Shown here in pieces: positions 1,389-29,158 of a DNA stretch of 38,893 nucleotides (its first letter is position 1; each line of letters begins with the position of its first letter). The notes beneath the pieces are model-generated. The model searched no databases. It was not told the origin of the DNA and saw only the letters and a program-made list of their open reading frames with translations. The position numbers and the translations under genes were made by a program. The DNA comes from Haloplanus ruber (GTDB lineage: Archaea > Halobacteriota > Halobacteria > Halobacteriales > Haloferacaceae): positions 1-38,893 of the forward strand of contig NZ_JANHDK010000008.1 in NCBI RefSeq assembly GCF_024494725.1. The letters run 5' to 3'.

Positions 1389-1991
1389 CTATTCATCATC
1401 TCTATCAGGGAGGTCATCGATGAGGTCTTCCTCCTCGATCGTGCTGCGGACCTCGCTCGGAGACATCTCGGCGATTTGGCGAGCTCCCAGCAGGAGGGCA
1501 AGTGGCCGGTAGTAGCGGTTTCGTCCCCCAACGCGCTGCTCGTCAAGGTCGACACCTGTCTCCTCGAGGATATCCAACGACATCCGTCGGTACACACGCT
1601 CCAACTCCTCGCGGACCTCGGCGTCGAGGTAGTACGTATCGTGCTCTCGTTGCGTCACTGGCTCCAGTTCCGACATAGTCACCTGATCCGTCTGTGTGGC
1701 GTGTGTTTCCTGTTCCGCCTGTGGCGGTTGTGGTGACTTATTCTCCTGTGTCGCCTGTGCTGCCTCTGTCTGTGAGTTTGCGTCCATTTTGCTCGTTCCC
1801 TGTTCCGCATTTTTTGTCTGTTGCTCCTGTTCTTCCTGTGCCGCCTGTGGCGGCTGCTCCGACTCTGGCGTCTGTCCCGACCGACCTCGACGCCGACTCG
1901 GTCGGGAGTCCCGCTTCCCTCGAACACGGTCGACGCGCTCTTGTGTCTCCTCGTCGAGGTCCTCGCTGTCCTCACCGCTATCGTCGGTCAT
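1389..1991 (-). CDS. Partition-partner protein downstream of ParA
   Basis: This 200-residue protein is the second gene of the parA operon. Its ATG overlaps the parA stop codon (ATGA, 1988-1991), implying coupled translation. Residues about 1-100 are low-complexity, rich in Gln, Glu, Arg and Pro. The C-terminal half (about 115-195) is an ordered domain beginning YYLDAEVREELERVYRRMS and is the likely DNA- or ParA-binding part. By position it should be the centromere-binding adaptor that works with ParA, as ParB-like proteins do. The linker carries a PQPPQAxQxTH motif also present at the very N-terminus of ParA, which is unusual. I do not recognise a named domain. Confidence 0.75.
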   Translation of the reverse strand: MTDDSGEDSEDLDEETQERVDRVRGKRDSRPSRRRGRSGQTPESEQPPQAAQEEQEQQTKNAEQGTSKMDANSQTEAAQATQENKSPQPPQAEQETHATQTDQVTMSELEPVTQREHDTYYLDAEVREELERVYRRMSLDILEETGVDLDEQRVGGRNRYYRPLALLLGARQIAEMSPSEVRSTIEEEDLIDDLPDRDDE

Positions 1992-2917
1992 GCTGTCACC
2001 TCAAGGCCGAAAGCCTCGATGATGTGGTCACCCAGCTGACCGAACGTCTCGGTAACGTCAGCGCCCGGTTGGTACTCGAAAATGGACTCTCCGGCGTCGT
2101 AGGCGTATGAGAGCGCAACACGTTCGGGTATTTCGTACACGGGGACATCATCGAATACCTCCGCAAGGAACGACGTCATTTCATCAGCAGCGTTCGTCGA
2201 CATGCGGATCCGGTTCGTAACTGCAGCGACCTCATCGATACCGCGGCCAGTCTCTGTCTCGAACGCCGCGATCTCGTCGAACAGGCGGTCGACCGCCCCC
2301 TTCGAGGATGCCTCCGCTGTCGCCGGCACGATCAGGTTCGGCGCGGCGTACAGCGCGTTTTTGAACATCGGGTTGTGCCCCGGTGGTGCGTCGACGATCA
2401 CGACATCGTAGTTCGTGTCGATGCGAGCGATAGCGTCATCGAGCAAGCCGTACCCGTGGTCGTCGCTCCCGATCGTCGCCGGCGTCACCAACTGCGTCAT
2501 CGATTCAAGCGCCCACGTCGCAGCCTCAACTGCGTCCGGATCATCAACGACGTCACCGTTGTGCAGTTGACCGAGGAAGTGTGCCGCCGATAGTTCGAGC
2601 GTCGAGCCGAGCATGTCGATGCTACTCGGGAGGAGATCGGCTTCGGCACCCTCACAGAGGATCGTCGCGACCTCGTCGCGAGCCTCGATATCGAGGAGGA
2701 CATCGAATAGCGTGGGCGGTTCAGCCTCATAGGCGTCCAAGTGGCCAAGCGCCTCGGTCAGGTTGCCCTGCGGGTCGGCGTCGACGGCGAGGACGTCGAG
2801 TCCATGATCGGCGAGTGCGCCGACGAGATTCGCAGAGACGGTTGTCTTCCCGACACCTCCTTTTGCATTCGCGACGACCAACCGTGGCGGGTGTGTCGCC
2901 TGTCCCGCCTGTGGCGG
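1715..2917. repeat. Three copies of palindrome CCGCCTGTGGCGG within parA and its partner
   Basis: The 13-bp palindrome (CCGCC, TGT spacer, GGCGG) occurs at 1715-1727, 1841-1853 and 2905-2917. Around the first and third copies the similarity extends over 36 bp (1701-1736 and 2891-2926, five differences). Copies lie inside the Pro/Gln-rich coding regions of parA and its partner. They could be a coding repeat only, or in-gene binding sites for the partition complex. Confidence 0.55.
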
Positions 2918-2929
2918 CTGTGGTGGCAT
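1988..2929 (-). CDS. parA: ParA/Soj-family partition ATPase
   Basis: This 313-residue deviant-Walker ATPase drives plasmid segregation together with a centromere-binding partner. KGGVGKTT (residues 23-30) is the deviant Walker A motif with the signature lysine, VDADPQGN (about 49-56) is motif A', and VVIVDAPPG (about 172-180) is Walker B. Length and order of motifs are normal for ParA. A Pro/Gln-rich tail of about 14 residues precedes the ATPase fold and resembles a motif in the downstream partner. It is the first gene of a two-gene operon with a 4-bp overlap. The intergenic region upstream holds a hairpin-rich segment running the other way. Confidence 0.93.
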   Translation of the reverse strand: MPPQPPQAGQATHPPRLVVANAKGGVGKTTVSANLVGALADHGLDVLAVDADPQGNLTEALGHLDAYEAEPPTLFDVLLDIEARDEVATILCEGAEADLLPSSIDMLGSTLELSAAHFLGQLHNGDVVDDPDAVEAATWALESMTQLVTPATIGSDDHGYGLLDDAIARIDTNYDVVIVDAPPGHNPMFKNALYAAPNLIVPATAEASSKGAVDRLFDEIAAFETETGRGIDEVAAVTNRIRMSTNAADEMTSFLAEVFDDVPVYEIPERVALSYAYDAGESIFEYQPGADVTETFGQLGDHIIEAFGLEVTA

Positions 2930-2991
2930 GGGCGGAACAGGTGTCTAGAACGTCTTAACTCTACGTCAGACATCACTTCCGCCGACCACGG

Positions 2992-3003
2992 TATCTTATT
3001 ATT
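2992..3003 (+). promoter_or_regulatory. Possible TATA box for the structured RNA
   Basis: A TTATTATT-like box lies about 25 bp before the GGGTGCC at 3021, where the first long-range stem of the hairpin-rich block begins. The position fits an archaeal promoter on the + strand, divergent from parA. The match to consensus is modest. Confidence 0.3.
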
Positions 3004-3144
3004 GTAGGCAACAAACAGTCGGGTGCCGAGGGAAGAATACAATCGAGAGATCGGTGCAAAGCTCCTCGGTGAAGTGTGCCAATACGATCCACCGCTTGAA
3101 GCTGGGGAAACCCAGAAGGTGAAGGCACCGCACGGCCCTACCAT

Positions 3145-3155
3145 CGTGCGTTTTT
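3145..3155 (+). terminator. Hairpin arm plus T5, possible internal terminator
   Basis: The CGCACG/CGTGCG stem (3129-3150) is followed at once by TTTTT. This could end a shorter form of the RNA containing only the 5' module. Confidence 0.35.
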
Positions 3156-3402
3156 GATGAGTATATGAGTACCCCGCCAGTAGCGGGGCTGCCGATGTTA
3201 CTCGGCAGTAACTCTGGTGTTGGCGTGACAGAGGCCATAGGCAGCTGCGATAACAGCGTACCCGTAGGCGTGCCCCGACAGTACCAGCACGGCACCGCAT
3301 GTCACACCGACGCTTGAAGCCGTCGGCGATTCTAGTATCGGTCCTACCATGTGCGTCCTCACCGCCGCTTCAGGCGGTCGTGGTCGCAGTGAACGACCAC
3401 AC

Positions 3403-3429
3403 GGCCTACCGGGGGTAGCAGGGCCTTTT
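3403..3429 (+). terminator. GC-rich hairpin followed by TTTT
   Basis: CTACC/GGTAG, enclosed by GGC/GCC (3403-3425), is followed by four T. This is the likely 3' end of the structured RNA. Confidence 0.4.
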
Positions 3430-3779
3430 GTGTTCCGCTCCCGGCCCCGATGGGTGACCACCTGTTTGAATCGCTACACATTTTCTGGGGGACGGTGCCT
3501 GCTGTCTCCCTCGGCCGTACTCAACTAGAAGACCCCTTGACACATAAGCTTGGCAAGACCAGAGTCAAAGTGAAGTTACACACCCTAAAACGCATGAAAG
3601 CAATACTTTCCCACCGGAACAGAAGGGGGAGTGTGGCCGTCGGATAATATACAAGTCAGCTAAAATTATTCCGATATTCCCGTCTGTTTTCCCGAGTGCC
3701 AACATCACGGCGACGGGTATCCTAACAAGATTCAATAACAACCTCTGGATCGTTCCCAAACGCTTATACCGATCTTGGT

Positions 3780-4203
3780 GGCTCTGTTGAAATACTTGAA
3801 AAATTATATATTCTAACTAGTCGCGGTCAGTACAGGGTTCTAATCTCCCATTCAGGAACCTTCGAGAATATCCTGTGTCCCCAAAGTATCTATATTCTCT
3901 CTGGATAGGTACACTATGAACGATACTCAAAACCGTAGTGGAGAACAGTTATTGATAGGGGTCGGAGGGCTGGCCTTAGTAATCCAATTAATCGTGTTTC
4001 AGAACAGTCTCGGAATAGTGAATAATTCGGGAGTTTCTGGAACGCTTGGAGACATTGTGAGTGGCGGATTGTTGCTTGTGGCAGTGGTTTGCCTCGCCGG
4101 AGGAGTGTACCTCCGTCAGCGTGGTTCTTGATGGATACGCAGCTCTCATCCACCGGCTGTTTCAGTCGATGATGTATCTGAAGAATAGGATTTCAACGGA
4201 GGC
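3780..4203. mobile_element. Non-autonomous element 1 (about 424 bp) with terminal repeats and a small membrane-protein gene
   Basis: The left end begins GGCTCTGTTGAAAT at 3780. The right end is an inverted, slightly decayed copy ending TTTCAACGGAGGC near 4203. Both ends match element 2 (5714-6275): the segments after the left repeat (ATTCTAAC...GCGGTCA.TACAGG) and before the right repeat (GCAGCTCTCATC.ACCGGCTG...TGAAGAATAGGATTTCAAC) are shared, while the middles differ. No transposase is present. Terminal repeats of this type are typical of haloarchaeal insertion sequences. Confidence 0.6.
3916..4131 (+). CDS. Small two-helix membrane protein (element 1 cargo)
   Basis: The product is 71 residues. 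Hydrophobic stretches at about 12-33 and 45-64 look like two membrane helices, separated by a short polar loop, with a basic C-terminus (LRQRGS). A TATATT box at 3890-3895 sits about 23-26 bp before the ATG, as for a leaderless transcript. The gene is the sole cargo of a terminal-repeat element. No family is recognised. Its analogue in the related element 2 encodes a different small membrane protein, so membrane-protein cargo may be a theme of these elements. Confidence 0.6.
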   Translation: MNDTQNRSGEQLLIGVGGLALVIQLIVFQNSLGIVNNSGVSGTLGDIVSGGLLLVAVVCLAGGVYLRQRGS

Positions 4204-5713: not shown

Positions 5714-6275
5714 GGCTTTGTTGAAATCCTATTCTTCAGACATATTCTTGCCTGAAACAGCCGGTCGATGAGAGCTGCGAATTCTTCACTCGCAATCGTG
5801 AAGTGAAAACAATTTTATGTTTAAATCAATATGGGCGGGAGTACTCCGAGTATTCAACTGGCGACCTGTAGAACGACGCTGAGAAGAGCTATGAGGGCAC
5901 AAAGACCCATTACAAGAATAGCGTAAAACGGCACTTGGAACTCTGATGGGTCAGTCGAGAATATCTTGTACAGTGATGTAGTGACAAGCAGGGCTCCACC
6001 ACCACACACCAACATGACAAAAATACCAAAACCATCCGTTGTTCCCGAAATAAAGCCGTCCACGCCAATTGCTATTCCCAGAATTGCTGAAAACCCATAA
6101 AAGACAGATGGTCGGTTCATAACGGATTAAAATAGAAGGAGCGTGAAAAATTGTCCGCTCTGTATGACTTTCAACGGCCAGTGAGTAGTTCATCTGTACT
6201 GAGCGATCTGTGTGTCACCTGTATTGACCGCAACCGGGTTAGAATGTATCAACTATTGAGGATTTCAACAGAGCC
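5714..6275. mobile_element. Non-autonomous element 2 (about 562 bp) with terminal repeats and a small membrane-protein gene
   Basis: One end starts GGCTTTGTTGAAATCC at 5714 and the other ends GGATTTCAACAGAGCC at 6275. It is related to element 1 in inverted orientation: the outer 60-70 bp on each side align, but the cargo gene differs. The two elements point in opposite directions, so the intact outer repeats (3780 and 6275) are inverted and enclose the lipoprotein pair like a composite element. Confidence 0.6.
5854..6120 (-). CDS. Small three-helix membrane protein (element 2 cargo)
   Basis: The product is 88 residues with hydrophobic segments at about 6-24, 32-50 and 65-86 and a short loop with KIFSTDPSEFQ between the last two. 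It is predicted as an integral membrane protein. It is the only gene inside element 2. No family is recognised. The length resembles that of the 71-residue cargo of element 1, but the sequences are not obviously related. Confidence 0.55.
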   Translation of the reverse strand: MNRPSVFYGFSAILGIAIGVDGFISGTTDGFGIFVMLVCGGGALLVTTSLYKIFSTDPSEFQVPFYAILVMGLCALIALLSVVLQVAS

Positions 6276-7992: not shown

Positions 7993-10900
7993 CTATAGCG
8001 TCGACTGCGAGACTAGCGTTGGTCCACTCTCATCTTCATCGGTCTGTTCTGGAGCAACGGCCATCCAGCAGATCAGCTTGACCTCTTCCTCCCGGATTGG
8101 TGGCAATGGCTCAGGGGCGTCATAGGGTTGGAGGCCGAGGTCATCAGCCTTGTCGACAATTTCACGCGTTTTCTCTTCACCCTCTAATCCTTCATCGCGA
8201 ACTAGCTCTCTCATCTCGCGCTCGTACTGCTGGGGCCATGGAGCTCCCAGTGAATCGATAAGCTCTTCTTGACGGTTCTGGGTTAGTTCTGAGGGCCAAT
8301 GGTCCCGAACTTGCTCAATTGCCTCTCGGAATGCCTTCGGAACATCTGGCTGAACACTACGCGGATCAGTCTGTTCTTGCCACTGCTGCCAGATGTCCAC
8401 CTTCGCAACCTCCCACGCGCCGTAGACGCCTTCTTTGAATTTGTTTGGAAGTTCACGCGGGGTATCGCGGTCGCAGTCGATCCGCTGGAGACAGGTGAGC
8501 GTGTCATCGATTATTTCTGTTTCATCGTTGTCCGGAACGAATCGCATGAACATTTCATCCCCTACCCGAGCACAGAAGAAGTAGCCGGGATTCTCACCAC
8601 GGAATCCGGATCCTGCTGCCCACGGGAGCGACGTGATCTGGTCTCCCCGGTCTTCCAGACCTTCGCGAAGCTCCTGACGATACTCTTCGCCGGAGTACGC
8701 AGCTGCTTTGCCACCGCCTTTCTCGTAGACTTCTTCGTCTTCTTCACGAATCGATTCGATATCATCGACTCGGTCAGAGAAATTCTGCTGCATCGTATCC
8801 ATATCCGGAATTACCTGGCTGTCAAGGCCAATGGATCGAGCGGCTTGTGTCACTTTGCGTCGAACGCGGAGCTCAAGTTCTAATAGATCGTCGAGGCGGT
8901 CTTCTGGGAAGAACGTCATCGGGAATATCTCGGGGTGTGGCGAATTGATGCGGTCAATCCGGCCATTCCGCTGGACGACACGCATCGGATTCCACGGCAG
9001 GTCGTAGTTGATTACGTTGCGGGCCTGTTGGAGGTTGACCCCCTGGGCGAGCACGTCAGTTGTAACGAGTATATCGTACTGGTCTCCGACGCCCGCTGGC
9101 GCATCTGCGGAGTCGGGGGCAAAGCCGTGAACTGCGTCTTCTCTCGTGATGCCTCGAACTGATCCGTCCCCAGTAACGCCAGCGATCCGTCCCTCGTAGC
9201 AAGATAGGGTATCGTCGTTCTGGACGCGCTCTTCTAAGTAGTCCAGAATCCACTCGACGGTGTCGGCGTAGTACGAGAAGATGATGACCTTCCGATTCTG
9301 CTGGAACGCCTCCTCTACCTCGAGTTCGGGATCTGTCCCCGCATCTTCTTCGGCGTCCTCAACGATATCGACGAGCGTCTCGCCGAGGGTATCGAGCTTT
9401 TCGTCTTGCTCTTGCGTGACAACACTCACGCGCTCGTACCACCCTTGTAGGATTTCCAAGTCGGCTTTGAGGTCCTGACGGAACTCCTCAACTTCCGTTT
9501 CTGTCGCACCGAGGTTGTATGCTGTTTGGTTGTCTGCTTGGTCAAAAGCCTCATCGAGTGCCTCATCGCTGTCGGCCTCGACCCACTCTTCGATCGCATC
9601 GGGCTTTGGGAACATCCCATTATTGAGAAGATTCAGCGCAGCCCGATTCTGATTGATCATCCGCTCTAGCGTGTTAGCGAACGCTTTGCTCGAAGATTCG
9701 AAGCGCTTCAACAAGCCCGTTCTGAGTAACCCGACCAGCGACAGCTCTGAAGCGTCTTCCTCGCCCTCAAGATAGTACGAGGGGCGGTATCGTGCTAGCG
9801 AGAGCTCTGACTCGTCACGATCCCCGGCCGCCAACCCCTCTGCGACATCTTCGAAGAACGCGTCCCCGAATGTGTCGCTGAAGTCGTAGTCGATACGCCG
9901 GGGTTGTGATTCAGGGAAGGTGATCCTAACTTCACCGCCCTCGCCATTGGGGAGAGTGGCGTTCTCGTAGTGTTCCCGAATAAATCGACGGGTCCGACGA
10001 ACGGTCGTCTCGTCGAGAACATCGAATAAGAGATCAGGGCTCAGGTCTGAGGGGTCCTCCGACTGTGCGTGTTTGAACCGGTCACGCAGCGATCGAATTC
10101 CCTCGGAGGCAAACGCTGCGTCGTTCTTGATGAAATAGTACAAGAGGTAGTAGAGGTCCCACAGCGAGTTGTTCACCGGCGTCGCCGTGAGCATCACGAC
10201 ATCCTTGGGCGGGTCGTCACGCAAGAGCTGTCTAAGCGCGTCGGCCTGCTGTGTACCGGGGTTGCGGAACGCGTGTGCCTCGTCGATGATGACGAGTTGG
10301 TACTCCTCTTTGTCCAGGTCCAAGTACGATCGGTCACCACCAAGCTGGCGCTCGTTCCGCAGCTCAGAGTACGAGAGTGTCTCGAACTGGACGCCCCACT
10401 CTGGGGCCTTCGACTCCCACATCCCGTCACGGAGGTAGGCTGGCGCCACCACCAGCGCGCGTTGGCGGTTCTCGTTGACCGTCTTCTCGAGGAGCTTCCC
10501 GGCGATGTAGGTCTTCCCGAGGCCGACCTCGTCGGCAACGACCACACCGTTGTGTTCGTCGAGGAATCGTTCAGCGCGGCGAACCCCGTCCTGCTGGAAG
10601 TTGGTTAGGTTGATCGCGCCGTCGTCCTCGGCTTCCTCCTCGAGTTCGTCGCCGTAGCGTTCATAGAGGACGCGCAGGTAGATGAGGTACGGGTCGTAGG
10701 GTTCGAACCGTTCTTCGTAGATCGACGCTAGGTCGTAGGGCTCGGCGTCGGCCCAGATGTCCTCGAACCACTCGTTGACCTGCCCCGTCACAGAGGGGCT
10801 GTACTGGCCGACGTTCAACTCCATGTTCGAGGTCAGACCTGCACCCGTGAAGTTGGAGGAACCGACCAGAGTGCCCTGATCGTGGGAGAAGAGATACGCT

Positions 10901-11337
10901 TTCCCATGAAGGAATCGCTCCTCGTAGCGCCTGACTTTGACATCATCACTCCGCAGGAAGTCGACGAGTTGCTGGAGCCGGCTGTCGATCCGTCGAGAGA
11001 ACCCCAACAGGTCCCGGTCCTGGTCGAGGTTCCGATCGAGAGTCTTGAGCGATTCCTCGAGGCGTTTCTGGTTGTAGTCCTCGCCACGTGGCTCGCCCGG
11101 CTGGCGCCAGCGCTCGGTGTCCTTCTGGTCTGGTTGTGCGCCCAACAGGAGACGAACCTCACCGACTTGGTCGAGGGCGTCGGCTACTTCGAAGTAGCCG
11201 CGGGGGTTGAAATAGCCCGTCGCGATGTCCAGGTTGGGCTCTGGACCCATCTTCTCCCGCAGGTCGTCGATGTATTCATTGATGGCCACGGCGAGGGTGT
11301 TTCCCTCACGATTGTCGATGAACTCTGGCCTGGTCAT
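7993..11337 (-). CDS. Phospholipase D-like nuclease fused to SNF2-family helicase
   Basis: The product is 1114 residues. Residues about 20-190 form a PLD-type domain with one HKD motif (HGK about 143-145, Asp about 151, then GSSNFTG about 158-164). The SNF2 ATPase core follows: DEVGLGKT (about 268-275), DEAH (about 352-355) and TATPVNN (about 383-389), with helicase C motifs SYYADT (about 686-691) and QRNGRIDR (about 785-792). About 200 C-terminal residues are unassigned. It starts inside the stop codon of the methyltransferase gene (ATGA, 11334-11337), so the two are one operon. It most likely translocates on DNA and cleaves or excludes unmodified invader DNA. It resembles the SNF2 component of class 1 DISARM, but the other DISARM genes are not present. 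Confidence 0.88.
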   Translation of the reverse strand: MTRPEFIDNREGNTLAVAINEYIDDLREKMGPEPNLDIATGYFNPRGYFEVADALDQVGEVRLLLGAQPDQKDTERWRQPGEPRGEDYNQKRLEESLKTLDRNLDQDRDLLGFSRRIDSRLQQLVDFLRSDDVKVRRYEERFLHGKAYLFSHDQGTLVGSSNFTGAGLTSNMELNVGQYSPSVTGQVNEWFEDIWADAEPYDLASIYEERFEPYDPYLIYLRVLYERYGDELEEEAEDDGAINLTNFQQDGVRRAERFLDEHNGVVVADEVGLGKTYIAGKLLEKTVNENRQRALVVAPAYLRDGMWESKAPEWGVQFETLSYSELRNERQLGGDRSYLDLDKEEYQLVIIDEAHAFRNPGTQQADALRQLLRDDPPKDVVMLTATPVNNSLWDLYYLLYYFIKNDAAFASEGIRSLRDRFKHAQSEDPSDLSPDLLFDVLDETTVRRTRRFIREHYENATLPNGEGGEVRITFPESQPRRIDYDFSDTFGDAFFEDVAEGLAAGDRDESELSLARYRPSYYLEGEEDASELSLVGLLRTGLLKRFESSSKAFANTLERMINQNRAALNLLNNGMFPKPDAIEEWVEADSDEALDEAFDQADNQTAYNLGATETEVEEFRQDLKADLEILQGWYERVSVVTQEQDEKLDTLGETLVDIVEDAEEDAGTDPELEVEEAFQQNRKVIIFSYYADTVEWILDYLEERVQNDDTLSCYEGRIAGVTGDGSVRGITREDAVHGFAPDSADAPAGVGDQYDILVTTDVLAQGVNLQQARNVINYDLPWNPMRVVQRNGRIDRINSPHPEIFPMTFFPEDRLDDLLELELRVRRKVTQAARSIGLDSQVIPDMDTMQQNFSDRVDDIESIREEDEEVYEKGGGKAAAYSGEEYRQELREGLEDRGDQITSLPWAAGSGFRGENPGYFFCARVGDEMFMRFVPDNDETEIIDDTLTCLQRIDCDRDTPRELPNKFKEGVYGAWEVAKVDIWQQWQEQTDPRSVQPDVPKAFREAIEQVRDHWPSELTQNRQEELIDSLGAPWPQQYEREMRELVRDEGLEGEEKTREIVDKADDLGLQPYDAPEPLPPIREEEVKLICWMAVAPEQTDEDESGPTLVSQSTL

Positions 11338-14300
11338 TCTTCACTCTCCAGTCGCTCGGCCCACTCATCATAGTGTTCGAGCACCGCATTCATACGGGAC
11401 TCGTGGTCCCAGTTCTCGTGGAATGTCTCGAAGACGACCTGAAGATTCTCACGGCTCAGGCCGTAGAGATGCGCTGAGAGGGCGTCGATCTCTTGCATCA
11501 TCTCCTCGCGCTCATCTTTGCTGTGAGCAGTACAGGAGACCCCGACCGCGTCAGCCCACTCCCGAAACCGCTCATCAGTTGCCGCAAGGGCTCCGGACAG
11601 TTCCACCATCCGAGACCACAAACGGCTTTCACGTCCTGGGCGCGGGACCGGTAATCCGTTGAGAAGGTAGAAGCTCACATGGTTTTCAACGAACCGTCTT
11701 GCGCACCAATCGAAGGGGATAGATCCCATAATCCCCATCAGGTACGCTTGATCTTTCTCATCACCCCGTGGCCAAACCAGATATGGGGAAGTGTCAAGTA
11801 AAATTATATTTGGTGGGGCAAGCGCCGGCAACACAGTTCTCGTATTAGTTTTGTTCGTAGAATCGCGGAATACGACACGAGCACTATAGCATGGGAGTGT
11901 CGATTTATCGTGAATCCATTCCTCGGGCATCTCTGAGAAGGGAGAGCGACTGCCAATGCGGTACGAGTTTTCTCTTTTTTCCTGAAGATAATCAAATATC
12001 AGATCAGGATCAGTCCAGACAGTTGCCTTAGACACATCAACTGACCAGAAATCAAACGCCTTTCCACCCAACACGGGTAGGAAATCCTCTTCCGGCGGTT
12101 GGTCCGAACGGTGAAGAAGCGTAGTTCCGTCGTCCAATTCTTCGTCTTCGTACGGAGCGAGCTTAAGCGGGGTAACAGGCACTGGTTTCCAGTCACCACC
12201 GCCGTAGCTAAACTTGGGGTGTGAAACGAGTTGTTCAAACGCTTCACTTGCCTCGTCGCTTGGCGGAAGTGGGACAACCGAAGATGTAGTCCAACTTCGA
12301 ATGTCCTCTATACTGAAGTAATGGGGATCTCTCTGTATTCCCTCCTCGTACTCTTCTTCGTCGTAATACGGTCCTCGAAGGGGCAGTTTCTCACCCGGAT
12401 CCCCAGAGTTGTGATAAGATGCCAGCGTAATTGTCATCTGGCCATGAATCCCTTCAAAAACCCACTCGTTTGTGTTGACTAGGAAAGTCAGGTCGTCTAC
12501 CGTGGTGGTGTCGAAAAGTTTCTCTCTGAAGTCTGAAGTGTTGTCCCCAGAGAACGCTCCTCGGGGAACAATAATACCTACGTGCCCTCGGTCGCCAACA
12601 AGATGCTTGAATCTCCACGAGAAAGCGATGTACATCTCCGGAGCAGAACCTCCCGAACTATTACCGCCATACGGGCCGTTCTTCAGGATAGTACTTCTCT
12701 GTCTTTTCTCATTCTTCTCGCGTTTGAGCTCTGCTTCCAGTCCTGGCCGTCGCTCCAGCAGTCTCTGTCTTGCCTCTTCCTGTTTCTGCTCAGACTTGCC
12801 CTGAAAACCGGGGATGTACCTAGCCCAGAACTCTTTGTCTTCCAAGGTGGATTCATCCCACGGTGGATTCCCAAGGAGGACGTCGAATCCGGGGTTATTA
12901 CCGTTAAATACTTCGGGGAACGCGGCCGGAAAGTGTAGCGGGCTGGTCGCTGCCAATACATCCTGTGCAGTTTCGTACTCGTCCGATTCTAGCAGATTCA
13001 CCCCGTCGTCGTCGTTAACCACTTCGGGGTCAATTTCGTCGTCGATTCGTGAGGCCGCCAGAATGTCGAACGCCGCACGGGTCTCCTCAAGTTGGTCCCG
13101 GATCTCCTCGCGCGTCTCCCGAGCCTTAGCGACCTGTTGAGCGTCAGCGTCCGCGAAACTCCCCAAATCGTCGATGGCGTCTTCAATTTCTTTCATCACG
13201 CTTGATCCGCCCATGAACATCCCAAGATTCGTCTGATCGACGTCGAGGATGTCGCTCACCTCGTCCAGCGTGCCGATGCCAGCCAGTGAGTCGCCCGTGG
13301 TGAGGTTGTAGTCGAGGAACGCCAGCGGAAGTCCCGGAACGAACGTGTGTACCCACAGTGAGAGTCGCGCCAGCTCTGTCGAGAGGTCGTTCACGTCGAC
13401 GCCGTAGATACATCGACGAGCGACTTGCCGCCGAAGGAGCTGGCTACGTTCAACCTCGGGCATTTCCTCACTGCTCTCGAAGGCGTCCTCGGCGGCGTCG
13501 CGCAGGCGATCGAGCTCCTCCTCGACCTGCGGAAGGTGTACATCGTCCCGAGTCAGATATTTCATCAGACGGTTCTCGATGCGGTCGACGGCGCCGACGA
13601 GGAAATGCCCCGATCCCATCGCAATGTCAGAGACACGGAAGTCGAAGAACGCCTTCGCGGCCGCTGTTCGACCCTCCTCCTCGCGCAGTCGGTCCAGCCG
13701 TTCGAGGTGGTCATCTAGTGCCGGTTCGAGTGAGTTGTCGAGAAGGTGCTCGACGAACCGGGTCTTGGTGTAGTACGTCCCGGTGGCTTTTCGTTCACCG
13801 GACTGACCGTGGAGGTATACTTCGCCCTGCTCAACAACGACGTCTGAATCGTTCTCGCCTAACTCTTGCTGACCCGTCGGGTCGACCGGCGTGTAGTGTC
13901 CTTCGTCGTCAACGGTTAGGTCCTGATCAGCTAGCGAGAGTTCAGACTCGAGCAGCCCCTCGTAGATGACACCAAATTCCCTGACGCCGATGTTGCGGAA
14001 GTCGACTGGGCCCTCTATGTCGTCGGCCTCAGACTCGTCGATGAGCAGGTTCGCCAGCACCGGTCCGAACTGGTCGTCAGTCAGTTCAATTTCGGCCAGC
14101 TTAGCCCCCGCTTCCGAGATGTCCTCGTCAGATGAGAGCAGTCGCCCGTTGTACTCGGGCAGACTCCACTCAGAGTGGCCGTCGTGAATCGCTCGGGCGA
14201 GTTCCATCACGTCGTCCCAGTGTGTCGTCGACCGCTCATCGAACTCAATCCCCTCCTGCCGAAGGTCGTGAAGTTCGTGGGCCTTCGCTTTCAGTGAACG

Positions 14301-15440
14301 ACGCTCGTACCGAGGATTGTGCCGCGGGAGGAACCCTTCGTCCTCAGCGTACGCGATGAACAGAAGCCGGTAGAGCTTGATCAGCGCCATCCGGTAGGTC
14401 TCGTCCAGCTCGTCCTTCGTGGGGTCCTCGAGATCGCGGGCGTCGGCAATAGCCTCAGCAAGGTCGGGAATAACGTCATCATAGATTCGCTCACGAAGAC
14501 GTCGACCCAACTCAGCAGCGTAATCCTTCGAGTCGGCCATGATCTCGTGGAGCGATCCTTCCTTCTGGAGAGCCCCTGACGAGAACAGCAGCGATAGGTA
14601 ACCCGCGTTGTCGTCAGTGAGTAAGTCAGTGTTGACCTCGACGAAGGTGTCTGTTCGACCACGAGAACCAAACCCAGCATCAGGGTTTGTAGTGTATAGT
14701 CGCAGACGGCTCTCAGAGCTGGCGATGACGTAGTCCAAGTTCTTCTTATCTGCTTCGCTGAGCGCGTACGAGACCGGTGTTTGACCGGTGAAACGGTCCT
14801 GTGCGTGGTCAAAGGACTCGTCCTCGTTCAGGAAGACGGCAACCGCCTGTTCTCGACCATCACTCGTGTCCTTGAGAATGTAACTGTGGTCCTGAAGTCG
14901 TTCAATCTCGTAGCCGAGCCCTTCAACTAGGTCTCGGCCTTTTTCATCAAGTAGTCCTTCGGCTCGACTAACAGCATCGTTCCAATCGGCACGATCGGGT
15001 ACTCCGGTTTTCAGTTCGTGTGTCGAAAGAAGGCCCTGGTTGCGAAGACCGACTAACTCCTCATCAATTTGGGCTAAGACGGCGCTAAGGAAGCGTTGTG
15101 CGGCGTGATGGTCCGGTCGATCGAGAGCCGATTCGCAGATTCGCTCTACCTGTGATGTTTCGAGATCGCGCTTAACATCTGGATTCTCCCCGGCGGGTCC
15201 GATGATGTCGACTGTCTGGCCGTCATCTCGAAGCACGACAACGAGAATCGGGTTGATTCGCTGATTCCGGCGGTCTGTGTAGAGCCGCTGTAGCCAGTTT
15301 TTTTGCGGCCGGTCGTCACGTTCAGTAACAACCACTTCGAGGGCATTGGATCCCTCCCCGAGATAGAGTTCGCAGTCGGCACTAACCCGATCTGACTTCC
15401 ATGGGCGTGGTGTTGCCGACTCAAGGAACTCGATAGGCAT
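11334..15440 (-). CDS. Eco57I-like adenine-specific DNA methyltransferase, possibly with nuclease function
   Basis: The product is about 1368 residues (1373 if the ATG at 15455 is used). Motif I is DIAMGSGHF (about 605-613) and motif IV is NPPW (about 863-866), as in gamma-type N6-adenine methyltransferases of the Eco57I class. The N-terminal 350 residues are an alpha/beta region; I cannot confirm PD-(D/E)XK residues there. The C-terminal part (about 1000-1350) is expected to be the target-recognition region. A TTTATTATT box at 15463-15471 sits about 27 bp before the ATG at 15440, supporting that start and a leaderless mRNA. It is the first gene of the operon with the PLD-SNF2 helicase. The role is host DNA marking in a restriction- or DISARM-like defence. 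Confidence 0.88.
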   Translation of the reverse strand: MPIEFLESATPRPWKSDRVSADCELYLGEGSNALEVVVTERDDRPQKNWLQRLYTDRRNQRINPILVVVLRDDGQTVDIIGPAGENPDVKRDLETSQVERICESALDRPDHHAAQRFLSAVLAQIDEELVGLRNQGLLSTHELKTGVPDRADWNDAVSRAEGLLDEKGRDLVEGLGYEIERLQDHSYILKDTSDGREQAVAVFLNEDESFDHAQDRFTGQTPVSYALSEADKKNLDYVIASSESRLRLYTTNPDAGFGSRGRTDTFVEVNTDLLTDDNAGYLSLLFSSGALQKEGSLHEIMADSKDYAAELGRRLRERIYDDVIPDLAEAIADARDLEDPTKDELDETYRMALIKLYRLLFIAYAEDEGFLPRHNPRYERRSLKAKAHELHDLRQEGIEFDERSTTHWDDVMELARAIHDGHSEWSLPEYNGRLLSSDEDISEAGAKLAEIELTDDQFGPVLANLLIDESEADDIEGPVDFRNIGVREFGVIYEGLLESELSLADQDLTVDDEGHYTPVDPTGQQELGENDSDVVVEQGEVYLHGQSGERKATGTYYTKTRFVEHLLDNSLEPALDDHLERLDRLREEEGRTAAAKAFFDFRVSDIAMGSGHFLVGAVDRIENRLMKYLTRDDVHLPQVEEELDRLRDAAEDAFESSEEMPEVERSQLLRRQVARRCIYGVDVNDLSTELARLSLWVHTFVPGLPLAFLDYNLTTGDSLAGIGTLDEVSDILDVDQTNLGMFMGGSSVMKEIEDAIDDLGSFADADAQQVAKARETREEIRDQLEETRAAFDILAASRIDDEIDPEVVNDDDGVNLLESDEYETAQDVLAATSPLHFPAAFPEVFNGNNPGFDVLLGNPPWDESTLEDKEFWARYIPGFQGKSEQKQEEARQRLLERRPGLEAELKREKNEKRQRSTILKNGPYGGNSSGGSAPEMYIAFSWRFKHLVGDRGHVGIIVPRGAFSGDNTSDFREKLFDTTTVDDLTFLVNTNEWVFEGIHGQMTITLASYHNSGDPGEKLPLRGPYYDEEEYEEGIQRDPHYFSIEDIRSWTTSSVVPLPPSDEASEAFEQLVSHPKFSYGGGDWKPVPVTPLKLAPYEDEELDDGTTLLHRSDQPPEEDFLPVLGGKAFDFWSVDVSKATVWTDPDLIFDYLQEKRENSYRIGSRSPFSEMPEEWIHDKSTLPCYSARVVFRDSTNKTNTRTVLPALAPPNIILLDTSPYLVWPRGDEKDQAYLMGIMGSIPFDWCARRFVENHVSFYLLNGLPVPRPGRESRLWSRMVELSGALAATDERFREWADAVGVSCTAHSKDEREEMMQEIDALSAHLYGLSRENLQVVFETFHENWDHESRMNAVLEHYDEWAERLESEE

Positions 15441-15462
15441 TGAGAAGAGCAACATTCTGTTG

Positions 15463-21159: not shown

Positions 21160-21652
21160 CCACCGACCGAGCAAGCCAGCAAAGTGAGTGGCAACGCTGT
21201 CGCGTCGGCGGCTGACCGCCGCCGACAGCGACAGCTCTCCGTCGATCCGTCCGTAATCATCTCATCGAGACCATCAGTACAACCGCTTCGAGACAGAACT
21301 CAGGCCGCAGAAACAGCTAGCTGTGGATGCTTTGTGAGGTACTGAGTATTGAGGGAAGAGTTGGCGAAGATCGATGAGTCGGAGAAGTTCTTCTAAGGGT
21401 AACTCGCTGTCCAGATTGTTGGTTTAATATTCGCCTCCGAAAGACTTAGTAAGCGGACGTACGGGTTGCTTTTCGGCTATGCTTGGTGTCAAAGGTGTGG
21501 CCTCGGCACTCATAGGGCTCCTCACATATCGTAGTCGAGGATAGCAGAGCGTCAACTGTGGTTATGATTATTGCGCTAATTACGCCCACTCGGTGGCACG
21601 ACAAACCTGCAACGGACGTTTTTTGGTTTGGTCACGCGACATCCAATATCAT

Positions 21653-21702
21653 TTCCTTATGTAACATATAGACAACACGGGAAGCAAGAGTTACATAAGG
21701 AA
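21653..21702. repeat. Palindrome TTCCTTATGTAAC-N24-GTTACATAAGGAA (copy 1)
   Basis: Perfect 13-bp arms lie at 21653-21665 and 21690-21702. A near-identical arm pair occurs at 37747-37794. Both copies end a few bases before a start codon, so an operator for a dimeric regulator is a reasonable reading; a recombination site is the alternative. Confidence 0.6.
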
Positions 21703-21710
21703 TTACGACA

Positions 21711-21842
21711 GTGTTGAGCAGCTACTATAGCCACCCGATTTCCGCGGGTGACCTGTTTGTCTTGCTCTTTATCAATACCTCTAGAACACTCGTCACAGTC
21801 GACATTGACCGTAGCGGCTCTATTGAGATCGGCAGATATTGA
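21711..21842 (+). CDS. Possible 43-residue protein
   Basis: The GTG start at 21711 lies eight bases after the palindrome. The peptide begins MLSSYYSHPISAGDLFVLLF and has one hydrophobic patch. It is listed because its position relative to the palindrome mirrors that of the DUF6788-type gene. There is no other support. Confidence 0.22.
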   Translation: MLSSYYSHPISAGDLFVLLFINTSRTLVTVDIDRSGSIEIGRY

Positions 21843-22077
21843 TAGTTTTGAGAGGCTATGCTGAATACAGGACGCGAATCTCCTAAAGAAGTTACTTAAA
21901 AATTGAAAGACAGAATTGGTAATTTCAGTAATTTATCATATATGGTCATCAAGATTCTCACCCCCTGTACTGTCAGATCTCTATTTCAGTGACGACAGGT
22001 TTCAGAGCGATGTAGCAGCAATATCGGCTTGAATTCCGGCGATTTAGACCTTGAGAACCATTCTGTACCACCGCCTT

Positions 22078-26138: not shown

Positions 26139-27512
26139 TCAAAACTTGTCGAGAGTCATGTCTCCATCAATCCCGTCAAACAACTCTTGTAGGCGACTAT
26201 CTCCTTGGAGTACATCACGCACGATGTCTGCACGAATTGAGAACTCGTACTCATAGTAACTCCCACCTTTCGGGCCTTTGTTTTGCTCGCGAACGTCAAG
26301 AAATCCTTTCAGCGTCAACTGGGACAAGCGGTTATGAATAGTGCGGTCGGTACGGACATCCGCGTCGATACGCTTTGCAGCCAACACATACCGTTCGTAG
26401 ATCCGATTTCGCTTAGCTGGGAGCGCACTCTCCTGCTCGAGCAACAATAGTCCGTACAGTGTTAATTTTGACTGTGTGGGGAGTCGTCCTAGTTCCTCTC
26501 TCACTTTATCCCGCTCAACTGCTTCATCCGCACGACGAACATGCTCTTCAGTGATACAGCCACTTTCCTCGTCACGCGCCATATCACCGGCCTTGTACAA
26601 CAGCTTCAGCGCTTGCCGGGCGCTCCCAGAATCTTGCGCCGCGAACGCTGCACATAACGGGATCACATCATCTTCAAGAATATCTGATGATAACTCGAAC
26701 GCTCCATTATCAAGTTGCGATGCAGTCGTATCGTGGAATGCTTCGGATGCTCGTTGCTTCAAGATGTTCCCGAGTTCATTCGCATCATACGGTGGGAAAT
26801 GAATCTCCTCGTCGCACAGAGAGTCTTTCACCCGTGCAGAAAGGTTATCTCGGAAAGTGAAATCGTTCGAGATCCCGATAACCCCGACAGACGTATCTCT
26901 GACATTCCCATTATCGTTAGCGCGAGGAAGTTTGTATAGGATGTCGTCATCATTTCCGATAGCATCGATCTCGTCTAAAACTACTAGGCAATGCGTAGCG
27001 TCGAGTTTTTCGAGTTCCTCGAATAGCATCGTGTATATCATCCCAGATGGATATCCTGTCGGCTTGATCTGCTCCTCCGGCTCTCGAAACTCGTTTATCA
27101 GATTCGCAGCTACCTGGTAGCTCGAGTTCAGCGATTTACAATTCAATTCGGCAAAGTGTACATCAACGTCATCTAGATTCTGTTGATCCTCGTCTAGCCG
27201 CTCAATAATCATTCGAGATGAGAGCGTCTTTCCCACGCCTGTCTGCCCATATAGAAACAGGTTTTTCGGTGGTGCTCCGTTGATCACGGGTTTCAGAGCC
27301 GACTGGTACTGCTTGAGTTCGTTATCTCGCTCGATTAACTGATCAGGCCGATACCCGTCTCGAAGCACTGCTTCATCAGCAAAAATTGTAGAATCGGGTT
27401 TGAACCGTTCCAGCCCCATTATTACTCGACTTGTAACCACGGCGTTACTTAAAACCACACCTTCATGGGTCTCATCAGTTTCATCTGTGTACACCATGCC
27501 TTCATGAGACAT
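26139..27512 (-). CDS. orc1/cdc6: Orc1/Cdc6 replication initiator
   Basis: The product is 457 residues. FKPDSTIFADEAVLRDGYRPDQLIERD is the typical N-terminal region, GQTGVGKT (89-96) is Walker A, VVLDEID (about 176-182) is Walker B of the AAA+ domain, and residues about 350-440 form the winged-helix DNA-binding domain. It recognises origin boxes and recruits the replicative helicase. The repeats upstream (27571-27969) are the obvious targets. The N-terminus may really begin at ATG 27419 (MGLERFKPD): a TTTTAAGT box lies about 30 bp ahead of it, and the extra 31 residues are not family-typical. It is divergent from the 28175 gene across the origin. Confidence 0.92.
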   Translation of the reverse strand: MSHEGMVYTDETDETHEGVVLSNAVVTSRVIMGLERFKPDSTIFADEAVLRDGYRPDQLIERDNELKQYQSALKPVINGAPPKNLFLYGQTGVGKTLSSRMIIERLDEDQQNLDDVDVHFAELNCKSLNSSYQVAANLINEFREPEEQIKPTGYPSGMIYTMLFEELEKLDATHCLVVLDEIDAIGNDDDILYKLPRANDNGNVRDTSVGVIGISNDFTFRDNLSARVKDSLCDEEIHFPPYDANELGNILKQRASEAFHDTTASQLDNGAFELSSDILEDDVIPLCAAFAAQDSGSARQALKLLYKAGDMARDEESGCITEEHVRRADEAVERDKVREELGRLPTQSKLTLYGLLLLEQESALPAKRNRIYERYVLAAKRIDADVRTDRTIHNRLSQLTLKGFLDVREQNKGPKGGSYYEYEFSIRADIVRDVLQGDSRLQELFDGIDGDMTLDKF

Positions 27513-28174: not shown

Positions 28175-29158
28175 ATGTCGTTTCGAGTGACGTGGGACAA
28201 TCTCCTCGACAACGTGGAGGAGCTTCCAGCAGACGCTACACTCTTCACTCCGCTCTCTCAGAAGCCGTTTCACATTACCGGTGTCCAGCAACACCGAGTG
28301 CTGATCGAGTATCAGGGCGACAGTGAGACCGTCCCGCTCCAGCGGGAGCAGTTCGAGACGCTGTTCAAGCGCGTTGACGATGCGACTGGGCCGTTCGATC
28401 TCGATCGCCTCCCACCCGGGGCTGAACCGTATGCCACCGTCATGAGTCTCCATCCGCGATTCACTATCGACGACCGGGACGGCACCCTCTCTGAAAGCGA
28501 GACGCCAACAGCGTCGCCACTTGTCGATGCGCACACGGTTGAACAGGACGATGGTCCACGAGAAGAGCCCGACATTTCGGTGTACGCAGATGCGCTTCTG
28601 TTGATCGACGCGCTCGAGCAGCACGATGTGACGTCACTCACGGAGTTGGACGTGCCGACGCTGGTGAACCTCTATACATTGCTGTCGGATGTCCAGCGCA
28701 ATGCCAACGATCTTCGACAGGAGGTTCGTGGCGTCTTGCTTGACCGTCTCCATCACGATCAACCCGTGAGTGGGCAATACGGGTCCGTTCAACGAGCTGT
28801 CCGTCGGAATCGAACACTCAAAGATGACGAAGCAGTCCTTGAGCTACTGGAGGCGGAAGGGATCGACCCCGAGCGCGTGCTGAGTGTCGACACGAGCAAA
28901 CTTGACGATGCGCTGGAAGTGACGTCACTCTCTGAGTCCGACGTGTACGAGATCGACGAAAGCGAGTATGTACGGAAGGCAGACGTCGACGACGAGATGA
29001 AAGAAAGCCGTCTCCAAGGGCTCAAAGACCAGTTAGCTGGAGCCGACGAAGACACAACCGAGCTCCAAGCTGAAATCGAAGAACTGGAAGAACGTATTAC
29101 CGAACTCACCAGTTTTGACTCCGGGACATCCTTCCATACTCGTTCAACTGGTGGGTAG
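28175..29158 (+). CDS. Origin-linked haloarchaeal plasmid protein, unknown function
   Basis: The product is 327 residues. The N-terminus MSFRVTWDNLLDNVEELP leads a compact domain (to about 100), an acidic linker and a helical segment (PDISVYADALLLIDALEQHDV, about 128-148). Residues about 270-315 form a clear coiled coil (LQAEIEELEERITEL). A TTTTGT box about 28 bp before the ATG fits a leaderless transcript. It lies directly beside the origin and is divergent from orc1/cdc6, so a replication or copy-control accessory role is plausible. A truncated relative lies at 31751-31920, showing that the gene family is duplicated on this replicon. Confidence 0.7.
   Translation: MSFRVTWDNLLDNVEELPADATLFTPLSQKPFHITGVQQHRVLIEYQGDSETVPLQREQFETLFKRVDDATGPFDLDRLPPGAEPYATVMSLHPRFTIDDRDGTLSESETPTASPLVDAHTVEQDDGPREEPDISVYADALLLIDALEQHDVTSLTELDVPTLVNLYTLLSDVQRNANDLRQEVRGVLLDRLHHDQPVSGQYGSVQRAVRRNRTLKDDEAVLELLEAEGIDPERVLSVDTSKLDDALEVTSLSESDVYEIDESEYVRKADVDDEMKESRLQGLKDQLAGADEDTTELQAEIEELEERITELTSFDSGTSFHTRSTGG

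Follow-up and report, generated by a model that had tools for sequence, protein, structure and literature searches.

Type I toxin-antitoxin mRNAs of the hok/sok type, described from bacterial plasmids, are plasmid-borne folded RNAs of ~400 nt that specify a hydrophobic helical peptide of ~50 residues and carry its start region beside a hairpin. Each of these traits recurs, the peptide as a candidate, in an element on a plasmid of Haloplanus ruber. The two share no sequence relation, however, and the host of the element is an archaeon. Antisense RNA, toxicity and processing are features of hok/sok, and in the element the only candidate for an antisense RNA is a possible plus-strand RNA in 3021–3156. 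Because homology of the predicted peptide to a known type I toxin was tested and no Pfam or PHROG match was obtained, we do not assign the element to the hok/sok class. A limited open-access literature search found no type I systems in archaea.

Regulatory RNAs of plasmid copy number or partition, such as CopA/CopT of R1, likewise place a structured RNA beside a plasmid maintenance gene. Unlike these, the element does not overlap a replication gene, and close relatives of parA occur without it. Haloarchaeal intergenic sRNAs and the omega RNAs of IS200/IS605 are also structured haloarchaeal RNAs outside annotated genes, but the element has no Rfam match and no transposase gene was noticed in its immediate neighbourhood. 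To our knowledge, few large structured RNAs have been described from archaeal plasmids.

The element adjoins the partition genes, beside parA (Table 1). The sole relative found is on the Halobacterium salinarum plasmid pKBTZ03_58, in the same position beside parA (88.8% identity, 452 nt), where the counterpart is without any annotation; the two plasmids have further backbone blocks in common. In 50-nt bins, identity is 90–98% through 3101–3350, 76–78% in 3001–3100, 78% in 3351–3400 and 62% in 3401–3450, and it drops to ~45% past 3450. Between the same plasmids, codon positions one, two and three of parA differ at 7.6, 3.5 and 33.8%, the third positions serving as a rough near-neutral yardstick. 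Because the core is 90–98% identical against a third-position divergence of 34% in parA, it is under strong nucleotide-level selection. Beyond the right end of the element the sequence is otherwise diverged from the H. salinarum plasmid, but short conserved patches occur at 3536–3572 and ~3613–3633, and these are possible promoter or regulator sites of a minus-strand RNA.

Table 1. Features of the element and its neighbour in the Haloplanus ruber plasmid
Feature	Position	Strand	Remarks
Structured RNA element (reading direction from 3430 to 3021)	3021–3430	-	Strand well supported in 3157–3430, ambiguous in 3021–3156
Highly conserved core	3071–3350		~6% different from H. salinarum; flanks 22–38% different
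9-bp hairpin (UGUGGUCGU...GCGACCACG)	3379–3401	-	Consensus fold
Hairpin ACCGCC-UGAAGC-GGCGGU	3361–3378	-	Overlaps GGTGA (3363–3359); A-U to G-U in H. salinarum
8-bp hairpin, loop GCUUCAAG (GCUUCAUG in H. salinarum)	3305–3328	-	Consensus fold
Branched central domain with long-range closing helix	3169–3295	-	A-U to G-C double change at 3282–3182
Candidate small ORF, 50 codons, MVGPILESPTASSVGVTCGAVLVLSGHAYGYAVIAAAYGLCHANTRVTAE	3198–3350	-	ATG 3350 to TAA 3198
Direct repeat CGCTTGAAGC, copy 1	3093–3102		Fourth base T, replaced by A in H. salinarum
Direct repeat CGCTTGAAGC, copy 2	3311–3320		Changed as in copy 1 in H. salinarum
Direct repeat CGGCCCTACCAT, copy 1	3133–3144		Repeat search
Direct repeat CGGTCCTACCAT, copy 2	3339–3350		Includes the small-ORF start codon on the minus strand
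Terminator-like hairpin and T5	3129–3155	+	Kept in H. salinarum; a short plus-strand RNA may end here
parA	1988–2929	-	Neighbour, outside the element; Pfam AAA_31 1.7e-30; PHROG ParA-like

Searches with the core DNA gave no further homologue in 391 genomes of the class, 392 of the order and 99 relatives. With a covariance model of 171 positions no relative was detected among 170 genomes of the family, and of four records only the H. salinarum plasmid matched. Exact patterns of the element likewise located no further relative in viral contigs and genome contigs. Weak matches were set aside: a 22-nt match, which sits in what reads like coding sequence, and a 25-bit covariance-model match were both taken as chance, while a match to CGCTTGAAGC upstream of parA in Natrialba appears, by eye, to lie within a serine recombinase gene and is no copy of the element. 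Rfam 15 gave no match above the gathering score in the window (the whole 38,893-nt stretch of DNA that was analysed). At E<=10 there was none in the element and only a chance CRISPR-repeat match outside it (E 5.7), and ARAGORN found no tRNA or tmRNA. The first-pass annotation had regarded the element as an undescribed structured RNA, a description with which the Rfam result and the nucleotide-level conservation in one homologue agree.

Close relatives of parA were also found in Halorubrum. Plasmids of Halorubrum ezzemoulense and Hrr. yunnanense encode ParA proteins 97% and 95% identical to that of the Haloplanus ruber plasmid, yet lack the element; the shared sequence extends only 76–92 nt upstream from the parA 5' end, after which the plasmids diverge. 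An obligate component of the partition system would be present with orthologous parA, and in these two plasmids it is absent. The element is therefore not needed for partition, and a needed role in segregation is not supported. Because parA keeps its promoter-proximal sequence in plasmids without the element, a minus-strand RNA would be separate from parA. By this comparison of sequences, what lies upstream of parA is a distinct insert or cargo. Between the two haloarchaeal genera the element is better conserved than the adjacent partition gene, yet it is dispensable for parA.

The many perfect stems that had drawn attention to 3021–3430 are indeed present, including the GAAA and GAGA hairpins and the GGTGCC/GGCACC pairing. 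When compared with dinucleotide shuffles, as had been proposed, the minus strand gave a clear excess of stability (-168.9 kcal/mol, z -3.12, 0/100 shuffles as stable) and the plus strand a weak one (-162.2 kcal/mol, z -1.71, 6/100). Over 120-nt windows the signal peaks on the minus strand at ~3120–3270 (z of roughly -3 to -4). Windows of this size elsewhere on the plasmid reach -4.5, however, so that local stability says little by itself. Consensus folds of the two sequences (alifold) differ by strand in the same direction, with -150.4 kcal/mol and a column-shuffle z of -6.1 for the minus strand and -123.8 and -2.0 for the plus strand. The minus-strand consensus comprises 112 pairs, 14 of them variable, and all 14 are kept, five with changes on both sides; the plus-strand consensus has 95 pairs with four variable. 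Because these figures come from only two sequences, the alifold structure is model-dependent and the kept pairs are no proper measure of covariation.

Controls are needed for the kept pairs, because alifold selects surviving pairs by construction. The same substitutions were accordingly repositioned, each to a site bearing the identical base, in 300 controls. Within 3157–3430, none of the 300 was as good on the minus strand, while 60 were on the plus strand, and the plus-strand consensus fold was rejected for this part. The corresponding counts for 3351–3430 were 1/300 and 36/300. Across 3021–3156 the strands were equally supported (minus 6/300, plus 8/300), which leaves room there for a short plus-strand RNA. 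No comparable signal was seen in the flanks at 2930–3020 (minus 238/300, plus 89/300) and 3431–3575 (minus 16/300, plus 201/300), and the boundaries first proposed, 3021 and 3430, fit the supported structure well. Nineteen control windows from the same plasmid pair, nearly all coding, gave z values of -2.23 to 1.76, the element standing at about -3.4.

The typical change is from U-A to U-G on the minus strand, the plus-strand equivalent being T-A to C.A, as at 3384 and 3246. Three pairs of the hairpin at 3379–3401 vary between the species (U-A to U-G, U-G to C-G), and it is only on the minus strand that they remain paired. Because U-A to U-G keeps pairing on the minus strand, and given the repositioning controls, the RNA is best read on that strand, although single-stranded DNA of the minus strand would give a similar pattern. 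The first-pass annotation had argued that the element makes sense only as a plus-strand RNA, and its proposed homologue search did yield a relative in which a fold is kept; the fold that this sole homologue keeps far better is the minus-strand one. The supported strand is therefore co-oriented with parA and not divergent from it, contrary to what had been described. In this respect the locus illustrates how comparative evidence can overturn the strand suggested by loops and T-tracts.

The conservation, strand and fold described above are results of computation in two plasmids. We consider a functional minus-strand RNA to be probable. Transcription would start from the 3430 side and proceed to 3021, parallel to parA, to give an RNA of ~400 nt that folds as a series of hairpins plus a single branched domain, with selection maintaining both sequence and fold. 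Our best overall reading, favoured on balance, is a plasmid-borne structured minus-strand RNA that is possibly a hairpin-controlled mRNA for a small peptide. Such an mRNA would work like that of hok: the hairpin at 3378–3361 would cover the GGTGA that precedes the small-ORF start codon, and a rearrangement or an antisense partner would set when the 50-residue helical peptide is made.

It had been stated that the region contains no credible protein-coding frame, which is too strong, since the minus-strand frame from 3350 to 3198 has modest frame-specific support. The predicted peptide shares 90% identity with its H. salinarum counterpart, in which both the start and the stop codon are retained. 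Upstream, the GGTGA is kept in H. salinarum while the spacer varies, and a 1-nt indel lies immediately 5' of the start codon. A ribosome-binding role for GGTGA is suggested by the archaeal 16S anti-SD; Shine-Dalgarno signals are little used by haloarchaea. Ten changes separate the two versions of the ORF, five synonymous and none in a second codon position. The BLOSUM score of the changes has p = 0.014 against plain repositioning and p = 0.001–0.004 against controls that keep the minus-strand fold, values that call for a roughly sixfold discount for the number of frames considered, and in the other five frames p >= 0.5. Peptide hydropathy is in the top 4% of 50-aa segments, and two helices are predicted (mean pLDDT 72.7, single sequence, Haloplanus ruber version).

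On the other side, the ORF ranks at the 0.7th percentile of the plasmid's real genes in codon usage, and divergence at its third positions is no greater than at its first (9.8% each), both of which argue against an ordinary gene. Peptide relatives beyond H. salinarum were found in none of the plasmids, phages, viral contigs and 391 genomes searched, weak matches at E 0.003 or worse being taken as chance. Nor can the ORF explain the conservation, because 3071–3197, which it does not cover, is conserved to the same degree. A second peptide frame, starting at the start-like repeat at 3144, was dropped because it is broken by a 1-nt indel. Judged from the sequence pattern, translation of the small ORF is a real prospect that we place somewhat short of even.

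The strongest competitor, tentative but a serious one, is a non-coding regulatory RNA from the same strand, whose repeated motifs would bind one shared partner, either RNA or protein, and whose small ORF would be accidental. The motifs AUGGUAGG and GCUUCA[A/U]G each occur in two copies, which the predicted fold leaves entirely or partially unpaired, and CGGYCCTACCAT is present twice, at 3133 and 3339. In the consensus fold GCUUCAAG forms a hairpin loop in one copy and is mostly unpaired in the other. The T to A change common to both CGCTTGAAGC copies in H. salinarum fits a shared partner, although the repeats are only 10–12 nt and could be due to chance. The codon usage and codon-position pattern that is not gene-like speaks for this alternative as well, and the conservative, frame-specific nature of the small-ORF changes speaks against it. 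We slightly prefer the peptide-mRNA mechanism to an RNA acting alone through repeated motifs.

An overlapping pair, in which the minus-strand RNA is joined by a plus-strand antisense regulator of ~130 nt (about 3024–3155), is unlikely. Such an RNA would start behind the conserved TTATTATT at 2997–3003 and end at the hairpin with T5, both this hairpin and the AT-rich box being kept in H. salinarum, and it would lie in the part of the element that is supported on both strands. However, the putative promoter was judged by eye only. Of the hairpins with T-tracts noted originally, that at 3129–3155 is present on the plus strand, but terminator-like sites are no commoner than chance (1 found vs 0.8 expected).

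It is improbable that the element acts as DNA, with single-stranded hairpins or palindromes serving as a replication, recombination or partition site. Two of the element's hairpins contain near-copies of the palindrome CCGCCTGTGGCGG (6 matches vs 1.0 expected), and G.T tolerance could favour one strand in single-stranded DNA too. A function of double-stranded DNA, however, would give no strand preference, plasmids with near-identical ParA lack the element, and the orc1/cdc6-like gene, named by layout similarity to annotated relatives, is distant (26139–27512). Still less probable is a single 410-nt plus-strand RNA divergent from parA, as first proposed, for which the GNRA-type loops, the T-tract and the supported plus-strand fold in 3021–3156 can be cited, but whose fold in 3157–3430 is kept no better than chance and whose pairs at 3384 and 3246 become C.A where the minus strand has G.U.

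If the hairpin-controlled peptide mRNA were true, the element would be a candidate type I-like addiction module in archaea. By analogy with hok, a plasmid-maintenance function for the peptide is conceivable but unlikely. A complete archaeal type I maintenance module, in which the hairpins would restrain a 50-residue membrane-helix peptide and the overlapping plus-strand RNA would act as the antitoxin, is a more doubtful extension of it.

Several other features of the plasmid were recorded. Full copies of the palindrome CCGCCTGTGGCGG are located at 1715–1727, 1841–1853 and 2905–2917, within parA and the next gene and almost nowhere else; there they encode PPQ-like repeats, and they could be partition-protein sites. 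Two similar, inverted segments of ~70 nt (4135–4201 and 5714–5783) flank two lipoprotein-like genes, and both match one site of a Halorubrum ezzemoulense plasmid, so that they look like the ends of a small transposable element. At 7993–15455, a large helicase with a PLD-type N-terminus (DrmD-like) adjoins a type IIG restriction-methyltransferase (PADLOC 1.2e-252), so that this part of the plasmid is probably a defence island. Finally, the apparently gene-free stretch 21558–21869 is 89.5% identical to intergenic positions 28631–28942 of pKBTZ03_58.
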